The position numbers and the translations under genes are program-made. Shown piece after piece: positions 4,417-13,248 of a DNA stretch of 64,000 nucleotides. The DNA lies in assembly GCF_009709575.1 (NCBI RefSeq), contig NZ_WIXO01000001.1, positions 3,164,001 through 3,228,000 on the forward strand, in the 5' to 3' direction. Below the pieces are notes generated by a model that was given only the letters and a program-made list of their open reading frames with translations, ran no database searches and had not been told where the DNA came from. The DNA is from Streptomyces taklimakanensis (lineage in GTDB: Bacteria; Actinomycetota; Actinomycetes; Streptomycetales; Streptomycetaceae). Within the stretch, counting starts at the first letter, position 1. Every line of letters starts with the position of its first letter.

Positions 4417-4523
4417 AAACGTCCCGAGACGTCCTCGGAGCGTCCGGATACGCGGTGACGCGGTCCCCGTACGCTCCGCCACCATCGGGTCTCCCACCAG
4501 GCGACTGGCCGGAGGAGGCCCAC

Positions 4524-5426
4524 GTGATCGCGGAAGTCACCGGTATCCGCAGGATCCGGATGCTGTACCTGCAGCTGCTGTACCGCTGCAACTTCGAGTG
4601 CCTGCACTGCTTCCACGGCACCCGGCTCCAGCACGCCGACGCCTTCACCGCCGAGCAGGCCGCCAACCTCCTCACTCTCATGCGGGACCGGTACGGCACC
4701 GAGGCCGTCACCTTCCTCGGCGGTGAGCCGTTCGTCTACAAGGACCTCGCCCGGGTGGTCCGGCACGCCCGGCGGGAGCTGGGCCTGCGGGTCGAGATCT
4801 GCACCAACGGCTACCGGATCGAGCGCCGGCTGGCCGAGATCGCCCCGCACCTGGACCTGCTGCGGGTCTCGTTGGAGGGTGTCGGCTCGACCAACGACCA
4901 CATCCGCAGGTCCGGGAGCTACCAGAGCGCGCTGAACGCGCTCGGCCTCGCCCGGGAACTCGGCGTCCCCACGGGCGCGACCATGACGGTCACCTCCCGC
5001 AACATCGACGAGGTACTGCCGCTGGCCCGCGTCCTGGAACACTTCGAGGTACGGCAGTTGAAGCTGCACTGTCTGCGTCCGGTCGGCAACGCCGCCGCCC
5101 ACCCGGAGCTCCTGGTCACCGAACCCGCCGCGTACGCCCGCCTGCGCGAGCGGCTCCGGGAGGCCCAGCCGGCCATCGAGGTGGTCGTCGACGAGGACCT
5201 GTCCGAGCACGGTGCCCCGGAGGTCTGCGCACCCGCCGGCGGCCCGGCCGAGATCGAGCGGATCGAGGCCGACCCGCGCGGTGCGCTCACCATGTCCTGC
5301 AAGGCCGTCGGCAGGGACGCGCACGCCTTCTGGTACGACAAGCGCGCCAACCGCATCGTCCACCGGCCCACCGCCACCGACGAACTGGCCCTCGCGGTGC
5401 CGGACGTGGTGTGCGGCCGTGTCTGA
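4524..5426 (+). CDS. Radical SAM enzyme
   Basis: A 300-residue protein with the radical SAM CX3CX2C cluster motif at C22, C26 and C29 (RCNFECLHC) and the SAM-binding GGEP about 50 residues later. Four later cysteines (LHCLRP, EVCAPAGG, MSCKAVG, DVVCGRV) suggest a short twitch- or SPASM-like extension, typical of enzymes that modify peptides or alcohols. GTG 4524 is chosen for its excellent GGAGGAGG (4511-4518); a further upstream ATG has no such site. Its stop overlaps the next start by 8 bp. Radical SAM identity is certain; the substrate is unknown, though a nearby small peptide gene makes peptide modification plausible. Confidence 0.88.
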   Translation: MIAEVTGIRRIRMLYLQLLYRCNFECLHCFHGTRLQHADAFTAEQAANLLTLMRDRYGTEAVTFLGGEPFVYKDLARVVRHARRELGLRVEICTNGYRIERRLAEIAPHLDLLRVSLEGVGSTNDHIRRSGSYQSALNALGLARELGVPTGATMTVTSRNIDEVLPLARVLEHFEVRQLKLHCLRPVGNAAAHPELLVTEPAAYARLRERLREAQPAIEVVVDEDLSEHGAPEVCAPAGGPAEIERIEADPRGALTMSCKAVGRDAHAFWYDKRANRIVHRPTATDELALAVPDVVCGRV

Positions 5427-6060
5427 CCGCCCGCTGTTCGAGAGCCTCGAAGGACTCCGCGGCACCGGCAAGTCGACCATCGCGCCGATGCTGGCGGCGG
5501 CTCGCGGCGCGGTGCTGGTCCCGACCGTACCGCCCGCCTACCAGCGCCTGCGGCGCGACGTGGACGCGCGGGGGAACGTCGAGGCACGGATGTGCTTCCA
5601 CCTCTCCGCGCTGTTCGCCGCGGCCGACGAGATACGGCGCCATCTCGCCCTCGGCATCCCGGTCGTCGTGGAGAGCTACTTCGCCCGCTGCCTGGCCACC
5701 CACCACGCTTTCGGCACCCGCCTCGGGATCACGCTGCCGCCCGACCTGCCGCAGCCCGTCACCTACCACCTGGCCTGCGACGAGGACGAGCGCCGGTGGC
5801 GCCTGGCCGGGCGGGACAAGCCGGTGACCCACTGGGACGCCCTCGCCGAGGCCACCGTCGACCGGCTCACCGCCGCCTACGCCCGGTTCCCGATGCACCG
5901 CGTGGACACCACCGGCCTCGACCCCGACGAGGTCCTCCGGGCGATCCTCACCATCGACACGCAAGGAGCCCACCACCGTGCGGACACAGAGCCTGTGGGA
6001 GCACACCCTCACCTTCTTCCCCCAGTTCCTCGCCGCGCTGAGGGAGCACACCGCCGCTGA
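5419..6060 (+). CDS. P-loop nucleotide kinase-like protein (dTMP-kinase fold)
   Basis: A 213-residue protein with Walker A GLRGTGKST at residues 12-20. The layout resembles thymidylate-kinase-type enzymes (N-terminal FESLEGLRGTGKST, then VVVESYFAR), although the substrate-binding residues of true Tmk are not evident. The GTG start overlaps the radical SAM stop by 8 bp. The frame stays open 83 bp into the methyltransferase gene, an unusually long same-strand overlap. The last 30 residues are rich in His, Arg and Pro and may be functionally neutral. It could phosphorylate a pathway intermediate or act as a regulatory ATPase. Confidence 0.72.
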   Translation: MSDRPLFESLEGLRGTGKSTIAPMLAAARGAVLVPTVPPAYQRLRRDVDARGNVEARMCFHLSALFAAADEIRRHLALGIPVVVESYFARCLATHHAFGTRLGITLPPDLPQPVTYHLACDEDERRWRLAGRDKPVTHWDALAEATVDRLTAAYARFPMHRVDTTGLDPDEVLRAILTIDTQGAHHRADTEPVGAHPHLLPPVPRRAEGAHRR

Positions 6061-6655
6061 TGCCACCGTCGCGGTCGTCGGCGCGAGCGACGGCAAGTTC
6101 GTCCTGCCGCTGGCAGCCGCCGGTTACCGCGTCATCGCCATCGAACGCGACCCGCTGGCCCTGCACGGCGGCGAGGTCCGCCTTCCGGGTGAGGAGCACA
6201 CCCACGCGATGGGCCTGATCGACCGGCTCAAACTTGAAGAGCTCCACGACCGCGTGCAGGTCGTCGAGGGCGACTTCCTCCAGAACGAACCGCCGGGTAC
6301 GCCCTGCGACGCGGTCTGGACGAGCTGTTCCTGGCATTACAGTGCCAACCACCACCGCCCGCTCGCCGAGTTCGTCCACCACATGCAGCGCCTGGTCGGT
6401 CCGGGCGGCCTCATCGGCGCGGAGTTCATGATGCCCGTCGAGCACCGCCACCACCTGGTCGAGCACTACACGTCCTCGGAAAGGCTCCGGCGCCACTTCA
6501 TCGGCGACTGGAACGTGCTGCTCACGCTGCGCACGAACGAGTTCACCGAACGGGCCCACGTCGGCCGGCTCCAGGACCACACCCATCGCATGGGTCTGAT
6601 CCTCGCGGCCCGTACGCCCGGCCCCTCCCACCGTTACGGGAAGAAGGACTCATGA
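5978..6655 (+). CDS. Class I SAM-dependent methyltransferase
   Basis: A 225-residue Rossmann-type methyltransferase. Motif I is VAVVGASDGKFVLPLA near residues 31-46, followed by an acidic loop ending in AIERDPLA; the motif IV region is DAVWTSCSWHYS. GTG 5978 follows AAGGAG (5964-5969) and lies inside the 3' end of the kinase-like gene. The stop overlaps the CYTH start as ATGA (6652-6655), implying coupled translation. The acceptor is unknown; the context suggests modification of the cluster's own product. Confidence 0.82.
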   Translation: MRTQSLWEHTLTFFPQFLAALREHTAADATVAVVGASDGKFVLPLAAAGYRVIAIERDPLALHGGEVRLPGEEHTHAMGLIDRLKLEELHDRVQVVEGDFLQNEPPGTPCDAVWTSCSWHYSANHHRPLAEFVHHMQRLVGPGGLIGAEFMMPVEHRHHLVEHYTSSERLRRHFIGDWNVLLTLRTNEFTERAHVGRLQDHTHRMGLILAARTPGPSHRYGKKDS

Positions 6656-7239
6656 AGCACGAGTACGAAGCGAAGTTCCTCGCCGTCGACGTCACCGACC
6701 TGCAGACCAGGCTGACCCGGCTCGGTGCCGTCCAGGTGCTCCCGCGCACCCTCCTCACCCGCAAGATCTTCGAGAACGACGCCCTCGACGTCGGCGCCTG
6801 GATCCGCCTGCGGAACGAGGGCACCCGGTCCACGCTCACGCTCAAGCAGGTCACCGACGCCACCACCATCGACGGCACCACCGAGGTCGAGACCGAGGTG
6901 GCCGACCTGCACGCCATGGCCGAGATCCTTCGCCGCATCGGGCTGCGCGAGGTCCGCTACCAGGAGAACTACCGGGAGGAGTGGCGCCTGGGCGAGGTCG
7001 TCTTCGACTTCGACACCTGGCCGGATCTCCCCACCTTCGTCGAGATCGAGGGCCCGGACGAGGCATCGGTCCGCCAGGCCGCCGCCCTCCTCGAACTCGA
7101 CTACTCCGAGGCCCGGTTCGGCAGCGTCGACGAGATCTACAAGAGCGAGGCGGGCCGCGACATCCTCTCCGAGCCCACCCTCCTCTTCGCCGACTCCGAG
7201 AAGGACGAGTCCCGCCCCGTGCCCACCCAGGGCACCTGA
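6652..7239 (+). CDS. CYTH-domain protein (class IV adenylate cyclase-like)
   Basis: A 195-residue triphosphate tunnel metalloenzyme fold. It starts MKHEYEAKF, carrying the ExExK signature at E4, E6 and K8. Alternating basic and acidic strands follow (WIRLRNEG, TLTLKQV, EVETEV, FVEIEGPD). The family includes class IV adenylate cyclases, thiamine triphosphatases and inorganic triphosphatases, so it acts on a triphosphate-bearing ligand. The start is coupled by ATGA to the methyltransferase. The acidic C-terminal tail beyond about residue 175 is extra. The role in the pathway is unknown. Confidence 0.85.
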   Translation: MKHEYEAKFLAVDVTDLQTRLTRLGAVQVLPRTLLTRKIFENDALDVGAWIRLRNEGTRSTLTLKQVTDATTIDGTTEVETEVADLHAMAEILRRIGLREVRYQENYREEWRLGEVVFDFDTWPDLPTFVEIEGPDEASVRQAAALLELDYSEARFGSVDEIYKSEAGRDILSEPTLLFADSEKDESRPVPTQGT

Positions 7240-7628: not shown

Positions 7629-7782
7629 ACACCGCCCGGGCCGGCGAACCGCCCCCTCCTACCCCGTCCCCGTGGACGACTCCCCTACGGCCACGGAGAC
7701 GGCCCCGGCAACACCAGCACCTCCGCACACCACAGCTTCCCGCCGAACCCGGCGGGAGAACCGGTAGAGGAAGGAGCACCAA

Positions 7783-7944
7783 GTGGGAGACACCACCCCC
7801 TCCGTGGAGGAGGGTCTTCTGGTCGCCGTGGAAGTCCTCGCGAGCGTCCACGACCGGCACGACAGCAGCGCCTCCGACCCGGGGCAGGGCAGCTCCGGTG
7901 ACGGCCCCTGGCCCGGTGGCGACGGCCTGAACCACGCGGCGTAA
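7783..7944 (+). CDS. 53-residue peptide, candidate RiPP precursor
   Basis: A short gene with GTG 7783 and a strong GGAAGGAG (7769-7776). The product starts MGDTTPSVEEGLLVAVEV and ends GPWPGGDGLNHAA. Its N-terminal half is acidic and helix-prone (leader-like). Its C-terminal half is rich in Gly, Ser and Asp, with DRHDSSASD and a single tryptophan, and contains no cysteine. It lies among modifying-enzyme genes and is followed within 14 bp by a strong hairpin, an arrangement typical of precursor peptides. A perfect 7-bp-stem hairpin (7738-7757) lies just upstream. No homologue is recognised, so the precursor role is inferred from context only. Confidence 0.55.
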   Translation: MGDTTPSVEEGLLVAVEVLASVHDRHDSSASDPGQGSSGDGPWPGGDGLNHAA

Positions 7945-7957
7945 CCGCCGGCTCTCC

Positions 7958-7989
7958 GGTGGAGGGGCCGCGCACGCGGCCCCTCCACC
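7958..7989 (+). terminator. Hairpin between peptide gene and oxygenase gene (attenuator-like)
   Basis: A perfect 14-bp stem (GGTGGAGGGGCCGC at 7958-7971 pairing with 7976-7989) closes a four-base loop GCAC. It starts 14 bp after the peptide stop and 38 bp before the oxygenase start. No U-run follows, as is usual in Streptomyces. It probably limits read-through so that the peptide is made in excess over the downstream enzymes. Confidence 0.75.
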
Positions 7990-8026
7990 TTCCACCTCCC
8001 ATCTGACGCAAGGAAGGGAACAGCCC

Positions 8027-9232
8027 ATGGAGCACCGTCTGGTCCGCGCCGTCGAAGAGGCACTGGGGTGGGACGGCCCGGCCCCGCTCGGAAAGGACTT
8101 CGCCCGGGGAAGCATCGGCGACCCCCAGCTCGTCACCCGACTGCTCACGCCCGCGCGCCTGCTCGACATGGTCATGCGCCGGAGCCTGGCCAACCCCCAG
8201 TTCCGCTTCTTCAAGGGCGGCGAGGAGCTGCACCCCGACGCGTACCTGGACCGGCAGGTCACACCCCGGGGCCAGGCGATACCGATGGCCGGCATGCGCC
8301 GCGTGGGCAGCCTGCTGCGCGAGGGCGCGACGCTGGTCCTGGACCAGTCGAACGTCTTCGACCCCACGATGGAAGTGACGTGCCGAGCCCTGCAGTGGTG
8401 GTCCCGGGAGCACGTCCAGGCGAACGTGTACCTGACCACCAACGACGCCTCCGGCTTCGACCTGCACTGGGACGACCACGACGTCCTCATCGTCCAGCTC
8501 GCCGGAGAGAAGCAGTGGGAGGTACGCGGCACATCACGGCCCGTGCCCATGTTCCGGGACGCCGAGCGGAACAACACCCCCAGCGAGGAGATCGTGTGGA
8601 CCGGCACCATGAAGGCCGGCGACGTCATGCACATCCCCCGCGGCTACTGGCACGCCGCCACCCGGGCGGGCCGGGGCGGCGGCCACAGCACCCACGTGAC
8701 CTTCGGGTTCGCCAAGCGCACCGCCGTGAGCTGGCTGACCTGGCTCGCCGACTGGTCCCGCCAGGAGGAGGTGTTCCGCCATGACCTCGACCGCTGGGGC
8801 AGCCCGGAGGAGCAGCAGGTCCAGGAACGGCGGCTGACCGACGCGGCCTCCCGGCTCCTCGACGCACGCGGCCCGGCGGAGTTCCTCCGGCTCCGCGAGC
8901 GCGAGGCTCCCTCCGGTCGGCACGTTCCCTTCCTGGAGATCTTCGGGCCGCTTGAGGCCGTGGTGTGTGTCAGCGAGTTCCCGCCGCTGATCCAGGAGGA
9001 GCAGGAGACAGTCACCGTGGTGGCCGCAGGCAAGAAACTCACCTTCGCCTCCAAGGCCCTGCCCGGACTCCGCCTGCTCCTGAGCGGCCACCCGGTGCAG
9101 CTGGACGAGGCCGCCCAGGTCGTGGGCGCCGAGGTGGGAGCCCTGGCGAAGATCCTGGTGGAGGAGGAACTGTGCGCGAGCCTGACCCCCGAGTTGTCCT
9201 CGGGCTACACCGATCTCGTCATGAGCGCCTGA
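8027..9232 (+). CDS. JmjC/cupin_4-type 2-oxoglutarate oxygenase
   Basis: A 401-residue protein with a cupin core. Candidate Fe(II) ligands are H147 and D149 (LHWDDHDV) and H209 (RGYWHA), and VQLAGEKQWEV follows the first pair, as in cupin_4/ribosomal-oxygenase proteins (YcfD, MINA53, NO66). The C-terminal third (LDEAAQVVGAEVGALAKI) resembles the winged-helix tail of that family. Such enzymes hydroxylate Arg or His side chains in proteins using O2 and 2-oxoglutarate. ATG 8027 follows AAGGAAGGG. The gene follows the small peptide gene and overlaps the reductase by 61 bp, so a peptide substrate is attractive but unproven. Confidence 0.82.
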   Translation: MEHRLVRAVEEALGWDGPAPLGKDFARGSIGDPQLVTRLLTPARLLDMVMRRSLANPQFRFFKGGEELHPDAYLDRQVTPRGQAIPMAGMRRVGSLLREGATLVLDQSNVFDPTMEVTCRALQWWSREHVQANVYLTTNDASGFDLHWDDHDVLIVQLAGEKQWEVRGTSRPVPMFRDAERNNTPSEEIVWTGTMKAGDVMHIPRGYWHAATRAGRGGGHSTHVTFGFAKRTAVSWLTWLADWSRQEEVFRHDLDRWGSPEEQQVQERRLTDAASRLLDARGPAEFLRLREREAPSGRHVPFLEIFGPLEAVVCVSEFPPLIQEEQETVTVVAAGKKLTFASKALPGLRLLLSGHPVQLDEAAQVVGAEVGALAKILVEEELCASLTPELSSGYTDLVMSA

Positions 9233-10032
9233 TCCTCACCAGCGCGCTGGAACTCGGTGTCGAGGCGATCGACACCAGTTTCAACTACCACGGCTTCTCG
9301 GCCCACACCGCCCTGGCGGAGGTGGGGGGCGACCTCCTGCCCCGCTTCACGGTCTCCACCAAGGTCGGATTCTTCCCGGCCGCCGACGGGGTCGAGCACT
9401 CACTCGACCCCGGCAGGCTCCGGGCAGCGGTGGAACAGACCAACCGTGATCTCGGACGCGTCCCCGACCTGGTGTTCCTGCACAATCCGGAACGCTCCCT
9501 GCCCGAACGCTCCTCCGTTGGTCAGGAAGCGCTGGGTACGGCGTGCGCTGCCCTGGAGAGAGCCGCGGCGAACGGGCTGTGCGGGGCCTGGGGCGTCTCC
9601 TCATGGGACCCCCTCCCACTGCCCGGCCTCGTGGACGACACCATGCCCAGGCCCGACGTGCTCATGATTCGGGCGGGGCTCCTGGTTCCGATCGACGTCC
9701 TGGAGGCGTCGGAGGCCCTGGCAGCCCGATGGGACCTCGACGCCGAACGGCTCTGGGGCATGAGCCCCTTCGGCGGCGGGGCCGGAAATCCGCTGTGGGA
9801 GACGTTCGACCCACGGGTCTTCATCCAGAACCCTGACGACGACCTTTCCGCCGTACAGGCCGCGTTCCGCATCGCCTGCCGGCTGCCGCAGGTGGGGAAG
9901 GTCGCCGTCGGCACGGACGACCCGTCCCACCTGGCGGAGCTGGTCGCCGCCCTGCGGTACGAGGCGGATGTCGGCAGCCTGCGCACGTACCGGCGGCTTC
10001 TCCGCGAGCGGGCGGGCCGTCAGCCGGTCTGA
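9172..10032 (+). CDS. Aldo/keto reductase family protein
   Basis: A 286-residue AKR-type barrel. The catalytic tetrad is visible: D34 and Y39 (AIDTSFNYHG), K64 (STKVGF) and H104 (VFLHNPER). A later GMSPFGGG may contact cofactor phosphate. GTG 9172 is preceded by GGAGGAGG inside the oxygenase gene, giving a 61-bp overlap; later in-frame starts would remove the conserved first strand. The predicted reaction is NAD(P)H-dependent carbonyl reduction. The N-terminus is shorter than in typical 310-340 residue AKRs. The stop overlaps the convergent APH-fold gene by 13 bp. Confidence 0.8.
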   Translation: MREPDPRVVLGLHRSRHERLILTSALELGVEAIDTSFNYHGFSAHTALAEVGGDLLPRFTVSTKVGFFPAADGVEHSLDPGRLRAAVEQTNRDLGRVPDLVFLHNPERSLPERSSVGQEALGTACAALERAAANGLCGAWGVSSWDPLPLPGLVDDTMPRPDVLMIRAGLLVPIDVLEASEALAARWDLDAERLWGMSPFGGGAGNPLWETFDPRVFIQNPDDDLSAVQAAFRIACRLPQVGKVAVGTDDPSHLAELVAALRYEADVGSLRTYRRLLRERAGRQPV

Positions 10033-10877
10033 AGTTCCTCCGCGATCCGTGCCGTTGTCCGGCGTGCCGGCTCCAGGCGGGGGTCCTCGGGGTGGGCGTC
10101 CGGGGCCAGGACCTTCGCGCAGACGAACAGGGTCATCAGCTTGCCGTCCCGGCTCTCCAGGTCGCGACGCCGCTCCTGGCGGACGCGTTCGGCCAGGGCC
10201 GGGACGGCGAGGGAGTTGCCCCACAGCGATGCGGCATCCAGCCCTCGGGGTGCCATGCCCCAGTCCTCCCAGTCGAACAGGCAGAACTTGGGGCCGGTCA
10301 TGTTCGCCCAGTTCAGGTCCGCGTGCGCGGGCCGCCACTGGCTCACCGTCGTATCCATGCCATCGGGCAGGAAGCGGCGGGCCGCCTCGGTGACACCGCC
10401 CTGGGTGATCGTGACGGTGTCCGGGGTGGCGACGCGGCTCGTGCGGTGGGCGGCCAGCGCGTCCAGCGAGGCGTTCAACGCCTGCCACCACGCATCCGGC
10501 AGTCCGGGATCGGTGGCCAGGACGCTGGTGCCGATCGGCGCTCCGGGCAGCAGATCGGTCTCATCCGCCCGCCACATCGCGGCACCGTCCGGCTGACGCC
10601 ACACCACCGCCCGGTGCCACCGGGGCTGCGCGACTCCTTCCAGGACGGCCGCGCACTCGGTGCCGTTCCAGCCCTGGCTCCCGATCTTCTCCATCCGGCG
10701 CCGCTCGATGCGCACCCATGTGCCCCGGTCCGTCCGCGCACCCAGCGAGCGCCGCTTGCGCACCAGCGTGTCCCGGTCCAGCCGGGTCTGGAGGGACCGC
10801 TCGACATCGTCGAGCACAGCGTCGACCGGCTCGATTCTCAGGTCGGCCGGTGCGGCGGCAGGCGCGGAAGATGGCAT
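10020..10877 (-). CDS. Aminoglycoside phosphotransferase (APH)-fold kinase
   Basis: A 285-residue protein with the APH/choline-kinase catalytic loop HADLNWAN (H185, D187, N192) and the metal-binding DWE (D202-E204). The N-lobe has WVRIERRRMEK but no classic P-loop. ATG 10877 has AAGGAGG immediately upstream; an in-frame start at 10910 is less likely. Family members phosphorylate antibiotics, sugars or other small hydroxyl compounds. It is convergent with the reductase (13-bp overlap), so it could provide self-protection for the adjacent cluster or be independent cargo. Confidence 0.78.
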   Translation of the reverse strand: MPSSAPAAAPADLRIEPVDAVLDDVERSLQTRLDRDTLVRKRRSLGARTDRGTWVRIERRRMEKIGSQGWNGTECAAVLEGVAQPRWHRAVVWRQPDGAAMWRADETDLLPGAPIGTSVLATDPGLPDAWWQALNASLDALAAHRTSRVATPDTVTITQGGVTEAARRFLPDGMDTTVSQWRPAHADLNWANMTGPKFCLFDWEDWGMAPRGLDAASLWGNSLAVPALAERVRQERRRDLESRDGKLMTLFVCAKVLAPDAHPEDPRLEPARRTTARIAEELQTG

Positions 10878-10970
10878 GGAACCTCCTTGGCGGCCGTCCG
10901 ACGCTAGCAAGGAACCGGCCTCCCATGTCTCTGGAAGGGAAGACGCGGCACAGCGGTCCGCTCGGTGTGG

Positions 10971-12638
10971 TCAGCGGTGCCGCGTCCGGGACGGCTGCGG
11001 GTCTGGAGCGGCGGGGTGCTGCGCGGTGGTGCGTGCTCTGGCTGCCTGGGCTTGTGGGCTGGGGGCGTGGCGTTGGCCGAGGCGGTGGATGCGCCAGGTC
11101 AGGGTGCGGGCAGGGTGGCGGGCGTCGTTCAGGGTGCGCTGGCCCAGGGCCTGGTCGAGGAGGGTGACGGCGTTGTGGCCTGTGGTCTCGGCGTCGGCGA
11201 GCACGGCGGCGAGGGCGTCCCAGGCGGGGTCTTTCAGGATGCGCTCGGCGTGCTCGGGGGCCGCCCGTTGGAGATGGAGGGTGAGGCGTTGCTTGGTCTG
11301 GAGGCTGGGGGTGCGGTGGGCGAAGTGGTCCAGGACCGGCCCGGCGATTCGTGTGTAGGCGGTCTGGAGGTGGAGAAGGGTCTGCTCGGCAGCTGCTTCC
11401 TGCTGAGCGTGCCGGTGGGCGCGGTGCCAGTGCCTGGCGTAGGCCACGGCGAGGAGCGCGGCGTCCAGCAGCATGGCCAGCCCGGCGCCGTCCGCCGGGG
11501 CGGGGTCGCGCACGATCGCCTGAACGCTGCGGCGCAGGACACGCGCGCTGTCGAGGTCCGCGGTGATGCGGGAGCGGGTGGCGCGTTCGAAGGCGACGGC
11601 GGCCTGCCCCAGCTCGTTCCGCAGGCCGGCCGGTGCGGCAACCGGCAGGAGGTCCAAGGCTCCGCCGAGGGCGACCAGCTGCCCCTGCGCCACCCTGTCG
11701 TCGCTGCCGGTGAGGTGTACAGGGATGCGCTCGGTGGCCGCGGTGGCCTGGTGCCAGGGATCGGCCGGGCGGGCGGGTGCCGGCCGGCGGGTGGGGGCGC
11801 CGAGGCGTTGGCGGATCTTGGGCAGGGAGAGGTCGTCGGCCAGGGTGGAGCCGGAGTACCACACGGGCTCGCCTTGGCCGTTGGTGTCGCCGGGCAGGGC
11901 GACGCTGTAGCCCAGCAGGTCGCCGGACGGCCCGGCCTTCGGGCGCACCTCCACACCGGAGGCGGCCAGCAGCGCGAAGAACCCGGCCTCGTCGTCGGCG
12001 GCGGCCACCGCGCGGCGGACCCGCAGGCGCAGGATCTCCCGCGCGGTGGCGTCCCGGCCCTGCCGTTTGGCCTTGAAGTGCTCCTTGCTGGTGGGTCGCT
12101 TGGCCGCGGTGCCGTCGCCGAGCTTCAAGCGCCGAAGCCCGTAGTCGGCCTCGATCCTCCGTGCCTCCTTCTGGACGGCGCGATAGTCGTGGCCCCGGTC
12201 GGGGCGGCGGCCGTCCTGGCGGACGAGGGTGGCGGCGATGTGGATGTGGTCCTCGGCATGCCGTACCGCCACCCAGCGGCACGCCTGGCCGTCCCCGTCG
12301 GAGGCGAGACCGGCGGCGGCCACCATCCGGCGGGCGATGTCCGCCCACTGGGCGTCGGTGAGGACCGGGTCCTCCGGTGCGGCACGGACCGGGCAGTGCC
12401 AGATGGTGTTCTTCGGCGCCCGGTCGCCCAGCAGGGTCACCGGCTGGTCGAGCTGGGCCGCGAGCTGCCTTTCCACTGTCTTCGGGTCGCGGTGCGGGAT
12501 GCGACCGGGGTCGGGGGCGAAGCCGTTCCAGGAGGCCACCAGGTGCGGATCGGTGTGCTCGTTGGCCCGGCCCGTGCCGAACAGGTAGGCGACCAGACGG
12601 CGGGTGCTGCCTCTGCCGAGGATGATCTTCGGTATCAC
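10971..12638 (-). CDS. Relaxase/mobilization nuclease (MobA/VirD2-like)
   Basis: A 555-residue protein. The N-terminus IPKIILGRGSTRRLVAYLF is typical of actinobacterial relaxases. The three-histidine metal motif is RHAEDHIHIAAT (H127, H131, H133), which positions the nicking reaction at oriT. The C-terminal half is Ala/Arg-rich and helical. The nicking tyrosine is not obvious; the N-terminal Y18 is a candidate. It lies 4 bp downstream of mobC, so the two form a relaxosome operon. High-GC long frames on the opposite strand here are shadows. Confidence 0.85.
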   Translation of the reverse strand: MIPKIILGRGSTRRLVAYLFGTGRANEHTDPHLVASWNGFAPDPGRIPHRDPKTVERQLAAQLDQPVTLLGDRAPKNTIWHCPVRAAPEDPVLTDAQWADIARRMVAAAGLASDGDGQACRWVAVRHAEDHIHIAATLVRQDGRRPDRGHDYRAVQKEARRIEADYGLRRLKLGDGTAAKRPTSKEHFKAKRQGRDATAREILRLRVRRAVAAADDEAGFFALLAASGVEVRPKAGPSGDLLGYSVALPGDTNGQGEPVWYSGSTLADDLSLPKIRQRLGAPTRRPAPARPADPWHQATAATERIPVHLTGSDDRVAQGQLVALGGALDLLPVAAPAGLRNELGQAAVAFERATRSRITADLDSARVLRRSVQAIVRDPAPADGAGLAMLLDAALLAVAYARHWHRAHRHAQQEAAAEQTLLHLQTAYTRIAGPVLDHFAHRTPSLQTKQRLTLHLQRAAPEHAERILKDPAWDALAAVLADAETTGHNAVTLLDQALGQRTLNDARHPARTLTWRIHRLGQRHAPSPQAQAARARTTAQHPAAPDPQPSRTRHR

Positions 12639-12642
12639 CGGC

Positions 12643-13248
12643 TCACCGCCCCGCCGTCACCTGGGCGATGGCGGTGTCCAGCTCGGCGATCGACGCCTCG
12701 ACGCGGTCCAGGAGGCGGCGGACCGCCTCCCGCTCGGGCAGGGCGCCGTCCTGGTTGAGGTGCCGGGCGAGCTGGTTGAGGTTGCTGCCGACCTTGCCCA
12801 GCTGCCCGTTGGCGGCCATCAGCACTCTGACCGCGGCGCGGTAGTCGGCGACCGCCGCCGCGGGGTCGTCGGCGCGGGCGGCGGCCAGCGACGCCTCGGC
12901 GACGTAGCCGCCCACCTGCATACCACTGGCCCCGGCCGCCTTTGCAAGGTCGGCGAACTCGCCGTCGCTGTAGCGAGGATGCACGCGGCGCTTACGCAGT
13001 CGGCGCTCGCGCAGACGACGACGCGGCGTGGGCGGCTGCGGCGCGCTCGGCGACGGCTCGGCGGCTCCTCCCACGGTCGGCTCCCCCGGGCCGGCCGACC
13101 CCGGCGCCCCCGCAGCGCCGGATGCCTCCGCCACCCCTGGGGCGGAGACCGGGTAAGGACTCCTAACCCGACAACTTGCTGCCCCGATGACGGCCGTGGG
13201 TGCCTCCTGCTGCGATCTTTGGGCGCGGTTGGCGTGTGGGTGGTGCAT
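12643..13248 (-). CDS. MobC-like relaxosome accessory protein
   Basis: A 201-residue protein. The C-terminal 110 residues match MobC: basic RRLRERRLRKRRVHPRYSD, then a helical region with NGQLGKVGSNLNQLARHLN near residues 150-168. MobC binds oriT DNA and helps the relaxase open it. The N-terminal 80 residues are low-complexity Pro/Ala/Gly. ATG 13248 has GGAG 9 bases upstream; GTG 13134 is a possible shorter start and would leave the inverted repeat at 13151-13169 intergenic. Confidence 0.78.
   Translation of the reverse strand: MHHPHANRAQRSQQEAPTAVIGAASCRVRSPYPVSAPGVAEASGAAGAPGSAGPGEPTVGGAAEPSPSAPQPPTPRRRLRERRLRKRRVHPRYSDGEFADLAKAAGASGMQVGGYVAEASLAAARADDPAAAVADYRAAVRVLMAANGQLGKVGSNLNQLARHLNQDGALPEREAVRRLLDRVEASIAELDTAIAQVTAGR
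13151..13169. repeat. Inverted repeat, candidate oriT element
   Basis: GGGTAAGGACTCCTAACCC is a nearly perfect 19-bp palindrome just inside or upstream of mobC, followed by ACAACTTGCTGCCCC. An inverted repeat beside a nick site next to mobC is the usual oriT plan in mobilizable elements. The nick position cannot be assigned from sequence. Confidence 0.4.

Follow-up and report, generated by a model that had tools for sequence, protein, structure and literature searches.

A conserved short peptide gene beside a JmjC oxygenase in Streptomyces taklimakanensis probably encodes the precursor of a RiPP-type cassette

Introduction

Fe(II)/2-oxoglutarate (2OG) chemistry is rare among ribosomally synthesized and post-translationally modified peptides (RiPPs), where it consists mostly of hydroxylation, and there is a precedent for 2OG enzymes that beta-hydroxylate Asp (PMC12636437). 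In the biphenomycin pathways BipG, BpmG and PbsQ are JmjC or cupin-like hydroxylases (PMC12707348, PMC12257519), and a JmjC-annotated enzyme of a RiPP pathway functions as an ornithine gamma-hydroxylase on a ribosomal precursor (PMC12707348). Here we analyze a 64,000-nucleotide stretch of Streptomyces taklimakanensis DNA (contig NZ_WIXO01000001.1, positions 3,164,001 to 3,228,000; hereafter the window) in which a 53-codon gene is followed by a hairpin and then by the gene of a JmjC oxygenase. Together with genes for an aldo/keto reductase (AKR) and an APH-type kinase, this peptide gene forms a conserved cassette whose product is probably a modified ribosomal peptide.

Several described systems bear comparison with this locus. 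Fusions of PF08007 to a RiPP recognition element (RRE) occur in fish and algae, with the closest bacterial homologues in RiPP-like contexts (Bregman et al. 2025, mSystems, PMC12710340). By description this resembles the combination of JmjC PF08007 and RRE-like domain in the window enzyme; the passage concerned is about proteins of fish and algae, and neither a precursor nor a cassette nor a chemistry is named in it. A 2OG-dependent macrocyclase that forms a Cys-Tyr crosslink (Xia et al. 2025, JACS 147:26693, as cited in PMC12636437) is likewise a 2OG dioxygenase with a RiPP precursor as its substrate, whereas, as judged from that second-hand description, the window peptide differs in having no Cys, which nearly all of its homologues also lack. 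BipG, BpmG and PbsQ resemble the window system in the pairing of a JmjC-annotated Fe/2OG enzyme with a ribosomal precursor peptide. However, in the biphenomycin pathways the JmjC protein works alongside many other tailoring enzymes (MNIO, B12-radical SAM, arginase, TldD protease) and the core is FRF, while in the window cassette the JmjC protein is the constant enzyme, those partners are missing and the core is Asp/Gly/Ser-rich. A biphenomycin-type pathway, with its FRF/FHAFRF core, MNIO and B12-radical SAM enzyme, was rejected for this locus, as it has no FRF core, no MNIO was found among the window genes scanned, and the cassette and the radical SAM gene at 4455 are not conserved together.

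Ribosomal oxygenases (ROX) act on ribosomal proteins. NO66, MINA53 and YcfD have their fold and catalytic residues in common with the window JmjC protein, but their substrates are ribosomal proteins and their genes do not lie beside a precursor peptide, a reductase or a kinase. The kinases of class V lanthipeptide and thioamitide systems, for example LxmK, are of the APH type, and the window locus is like these systems in holding an APH-type kinase within a ribosomal-peptide cassette. Unlike in these systems, no HopA1-type lyase is found among the conserved genes of the cassette, which is as far as this point was tested. In the open literature, where Xia et al. 2025 was compared only second-hand, we found no paper describing the peptide/JmjC cassette.

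Results

The peptide gene is conserved directly upstream of the JmjC gene

In order to determine how constant the pairing is, we collected 80 orthologous loci with the JmjC protein as the sole query and sought the upstream peptide by profile. A peptide homologue was found directly upstream of the JmjC gene in 79 of the 80 loci, and the remaining locus (L081) has a short frame that is a possible divergent counterpart. The C-terminus of the L074 peptide is divergent. An initial annotation, made from the letters of the window alone, had called a 53-residue gene with a strong Shine-Dalgarno at this position and had named the lack of a conserved short frame in orthologous loci as evidence against its interpretation. 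The gene and its coordinates are right (Table 1), and a conserved short frame is clearly there. It is a real gene and more than a chance reading frame.

The linkage is also seen from the side of the peptide. When the peptide profile was searched against 296 genomes of the class, about 15 clear matches were obtained. Among 16 match regions taken with their flanks, the JmjC gene lies right downstream in 14, the AKR gene follows directly in one (L184), and one is a poor match (L189). Some peptides from the profile search are minimal and have SDSDGSDG as their C-terminal end, and two loci (L185 and L186) are minimal as well, consisting of the peptide and JmjC genes with neither AKR nor APH. In a sample of 119 Streptomycetales genomes, JmjC homologues that are 29-35% identical to the window protein are mostly preceded by related short peptides, which have a related leader, a shorter core and the pattern LLxAV...R...SD...GxD (e.g. 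MNENAPTEETSGLLIGVRRIAAARSRAEEASDNTGGRSDMNDS); AKR and APH genes are downstream in most of these loci. About 10 of these genomes carry subfamily 1 and roughly 15 the more distant type. The cassette is widespread in Streptomyces and related bacteria and is apparently undescribed, with the peptide annotated publicly as a "hypothetical protein" and the enzyme as a "cupin domain-containing protein".

The peptide has a putative leader and core and is under purifying selection

The peptide is laid out as a leader of about residues 1-28, with the motif LLVAVExL..V..R, and an Asp/Gly/Ser-rich core that starts at about S31-D32. Among 39 homologues of 55 aa the pN/pS ratio is 0.34 over all pairs, with values of ~0.24 in the leader and ~0.24 in the core, and the peptide is therefore under purifying selection. 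Alignment of the peptide homologues shows that the N-terminal half is alike among lineages while the C-terminal half varies in both length and sequence. The locus thus has what is expected of a RiPP cassette, namely a short encoded precursor with a conserved leader and a more variable core adjoining its enzymes. Searches of the peptide against Pfam and NCBIfam gave no family match.

The initial annotation had pointed to His, Asp and Pro residues of the peptide as sites that a JmjC enzyme could hydroxylate, and the alignment separates these three. L12, R25 and D32 are near-invariant in both subfamilies, an Asp near position 40 recurs in most homologues, and D47 is present in subfamily 1, so that the Asp part of the proposal persists. 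His residues are lineage-specific, with His23 of the window peptide replaced by Arg, Gln or Ala in homologues, and Pro is confined to a subgroup with a lineage-specific PWP segment. We rejected His and Pro as target sites on account of this poor conservation; from the sequences, Asp is the likelier target.

The JmjC protein is a ribosomal-oxygenase-like enzyme with an RRE-like domain

An AlphaFold2 model of the JmjC protein (pLDDT 88) has the ribosomal oxygenases NO66, MINA53 and YcfD as its closest solved structures (NO66: Z 22.9, rmsd 7.8 over 366 residues). Of 114 homologues, 113-114 retain the residues of the active site, namely the iron ligands H147, D149 and H209 and the 2OG-binding lysine K162. 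The protein therefore has the HxD...H triad, the 2OG Lys and the combination of JmjC and winged helix that characterize a ROX-type JmjC Fe(II)/2OG enzyme.

The C-terminal 100 residues, folded alone, gave a model with pLDDT 86. Foldseek top matches of this domain include ThcOx, the PbtF RRE, TbiB1 (a lasso protein, solved with its leader), McbB, TigE, TruD and PqqD, with modest E-values (0.01-0.4) and TM 0.45-0.65, and the ROX winged helix is likewise among the matches. The domain is a PqqD-like winged helix with the order beta-beta-beta then alpha-alpha-alpha, as in an RRE. Since this fold is common to ROX enzymes, the fold by itself is no proof of leader binding. Taken together, the near-perfect linkage to the JmjC gene, the purifying selection and the RRE-like domain on the enzyme support the idea, already put forward in the initial annotation, of a precursor peptide for the JmjC enzyme: the peptide is probably a conserved precursor and the likely substrate of the neighbouring oxygenase.

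As a separate observation, broken JmjC copies are present in L118 (6123-8539) and L089, one split by ~1.1 kb of extra DNA and the other a match with a reported in-frame TAG.

Two conserved hairpins bracket the peptide message in Streptomyces

The perfect 14-bp stem that had been described between the peptide stop and the oxygenase gene is present, 13 nt past the stop and 37 nt before the JmjC start. The region 7930-8060 folds with -67.5 kcal/mol compared with -51.2 +/- 4.0 in dinucleotide shuffles (z -4.05, 0 of 200 shuffles as low). In 38 Streptomyces-type loci 94.4% of the pairs of this 3' hairpin are kept (85.6% in shuffles), and 41 compensatory cells, in which both sides of a pair have changed, were counted compared with 9.3 in shuffles; sliding controls collapse. 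The 3' hairpin is a real element in Streptomyces, where compensatory changes have preserved it.

A second hairpin lies in the 5' untranslated region (UTR) of the peptide gene and is common to both Streptomyces subfamilies. In 37 Streptomyces-type loci it is 94.1% paired and has 18 compensatory cells compared with 4.4 in shuffles. When a covariance model of this element was run on 41 Streptomyces genomes, the best matches were four subfamily-1 loci, and the weaker matches include three loci of the second type; peptide genes were directly read in 6 of the 7 loci. The model leads to peptide genes of both subfamilies, and both these genes and the two conserved RNA elements that flank them thus gain independent support. 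Neither hairpin corresponds to a known RNA family in Rfam, where only noise under the gathering score was obtained.

There is no room for the 3' hairpin in L063, L064, L068, L071, L076 and L079, where only 11-14 nt separate the peptide stop from the JmjC gene; loci with such gaps include several from Amycolatopsis, Nocardia and Actinokineospora. In the Nocardiopsis loci L055 and L058 no stem is formed at the position of the 3' hairpin. A consensus scan found no sigma-70 promoter and no U-tailed terminator near the peptide gene.

The reductase and the kinase are the only other conserved window genes

Over the 80 loci the conserved window genes are those of the peptide (79 by profile, 61 by tblastn), JmjC (80), AKR (74) and APH (79), and no others. 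The AKR tetrad D34/Y39/K64/H104 is present in 102 of 102 homologues, and the APH catalytic residues H185/D187/N192/D202, which make up the HxD...N and D motifs, are present in 105 of 105. The coordinates of all features are given in Table 1.

Table 1. Positions of the cassette genes and RNA elements in the window.
Feature	Position	Strand	Remarks
5'-UTR hairpin	7738..7757	+	TCCCGCCG-AACC-CGGCGGGA, immediately 5' of the peptide gene's Shine-Dalgarno
Shine-Dalgarno of precursor peptide gene	7771..7776	+	AAGGAG; 6-nt Shine-Dalgarno match in most homologues
Precursor peptide gene	7783..7944	+	GTG start, 53 codons/53 aa; product MGDTTPSVEEGLLVAVEVLASVHDRHDSSASDPGQGSSGDGPWPGGDGLNHAA
3' hairpin	7958..7989	+	stem 7958-7971/7976-7989, 14 perfect bp; loop GCAC 7972-7975
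JmjC_2 Fe/2OG oxygenase, ribosomal-oxygenase-like	8027..9232	+	401 aa; PF08007 E=1e-21
RRE-like winged-helix domain, JmjC C-terminus	8930..9229	+	folded alone; Foldseek
AKR	9172..10032	+	PF00248; overlaps the end of the JmjC gene; start codon by inspection
APH-type kinase	10020..10910	-	convergent; PF01636 E=1.6e-4, just under the gathering score; real start probably 10877

The radical SAM, P-loop kinase-like, methyltransferase and CYTH genes at 4455-7239 were rejected as part of the cassette, being present in 5-7 of the 80 loci. They form an operon-like run restricted to the closest strains, although the distant L011 cassette has a related run of radical SAM, kinase and methyltransferase genes at a distance of ~7 kb. 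A defence system was also rejected, as PADLOC gave no match for JmjC, AKR or APH.

In ~39 Streptomyces loci, genes for a HATPase_c_2 protein and an XRE-like regulator, the latter with a helix-turn-helix and no Pfam match, recur on the upstream side of JmjC, at ~1.3 and 2.8 kb, and they are possible regulators of the cassette. Neither gene is present at the locus in the window. A Suc_Fer-like gene (CxxHxxxxxCC) is located on the minus strand ~1.3-3.3 kb past the peptide gene in L179, L180, L181 and L185, where it comes after JmjC/AKR in Pseudonocardiaceae-type loci without APH; the call is based on a Pfam run for the L179 copy and on resemblance for the others. The only protease and exporter neighbours were seen in the distant L195, whose JmjC protein is 38.7% identical and adjoins genes for an M16-type peptidase and an MFS transporter (L195 1241-5191). 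The L195 peptide is dissimilar, with 51 Asp-rich residues ending in IDDGADADLD, and L195 may be a sister cassette that brings a protease and an exporter of its own.

Relaxase (MobA/VirD2-like) and MobC/NikA-like genes (10971-13248, minus strand) adjoin the cassette in the window, and related cassettes were found on plasmids, which suggests that the cassette may travel with mobile elements.

Discussion

The locus as a whole is best explained, with a probability of roughly 0.8, as an RRE-dependent cassette of the RiPP type, in which the peptide gene encodes the precursor, the JmjC enzyme oxidises the core and hairpins bracket the message. In such a cassette the leader, at about residues 11-28 (GLLVAVEVLASVHDRH), would dock on the RRE-like domain at the C-terminus of the JmjC protein, and the Fe(II)/2OG site would oxidise the Asp/Gly/Ser-rich C-terminal core. 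The most likely reaction would be hydroxylation of at least one conserved Asp (D32, D40; D47 in subfamily 1). Where they are present, the AKR and the APH-type kinase would act later on the oxidised or hydroxyl-bearing core, while trimming and export would fall to proteins outside the cassette, which may be supplied in trans. In Streptomyces the hairpins that bracket the precursor message probably raise the output of peptide over that of enzyme, through 3'-end stabilisation and/or partial termination.

Several points count against this explanation. The cassette has no known modified product or activity, and clustering of called genes over the 80 loci revealed no protease or exporter gene that is conserved with it. 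The 3' hairpin is absent outside the Streptomyces group, and no U-run follows it, so that it lacks the U-tract of a terminator formed by a G+C-rich hairpin and U-tract. As modeled, the RRE-like domain is also what ribosomal oxygenases normally have as their winged helix, and its Foldseek E-values are weak. In an alternative the peptide would be an unmodified partner, a regulatory subunit or a docking or inhibitor peptide on the winged helix, and the true substrate would be another protein, for example a ribosomal one, as with NO66, MINA53 and YcfD, whose ROX fold the enzyme shares. The peptide invariably occurs as a single copy next to the enzyme and is more highly conserved than many RiPP cores, which would fit such a role. 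We nevertheless regard it as improbable, as a variable C-terminal half joined to a constant N-terminal half is typical of leader and core, the cassette is patchy in Streptomycetales (subfamily 1 in ~10 of 119 genomes) and occurs on plasmids, and two more catalytically intact tailoring enzymes belong to it. For a ribosomal-protein substrate in particular, the peptide linkage argues for a different substrate. The reading frame could also be viewed as a regulatory leader peptide that serves translation-coupled attenuation of the oxygenase and has no function of its own, given that reading frame, hairpin and enzyme gene follow in this order and that the conserved hairpin is so close behind the stop. 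This is very hard to reconcile with amino acid conservation in leader and core beyond regulatory need, with the persistence of the peptide at loci whose 11-14 nt gaps leave no hairpin, and with the lack of any run of regulatory codons.

Returning to the RiPP-type cassette, the role of the 3' hairpin within it can be read in more than one way. The initial annotation had called it an attenuator. What holds of this is a covariation-supported element in Streptomyces; attenuation itself is unproven and, given the missing U-tract and the restriction of the hairpin to the Streptomyces group, it becomes one option beside mRNA stabilisation. The chances seem about even that the 3' hairpin serves chiefly to stabilise the 3' end of a short precursor mRNA, or as a barrier to its processing, and not as a terminator, which is compatible with the RiPP reading. 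The lack of a U-tract fits a stabiliser, and the 37 nt between the hairpin and JmjC leave little room for a promoter of its own, so that read-through probably accounts for expression of the enzyme. The likewise conserved 5'-UTR hairpin fits a stabilising role as well, and the two hairpins together would extend the life of the message. However, Streptomyces terminators often have no U-run, so that partial termination fits equally well.

Collectively these data support the interpretation of the initial annotation in part. We lean slightly toward the further proposal that the cassette represents a new RiPP class, which would be defined by the JmjC enzyme with its built-in RRE, in which AKR and APH would process the oxidised core and the two hairpins would keep the message abundant. 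If this is true, bacterial RREs and the winged helix found in ribosomal oxygenases of eukaryotes would be one peptide-recognition module, and the cassette would link the two. As some loci consist of peptide and JmjC alone, it would offer a compact system of one substrate and one enzyme for JmjC action on a ribosomal peptide, as well as a clean test case for a precursor made in excess of its enzyme.
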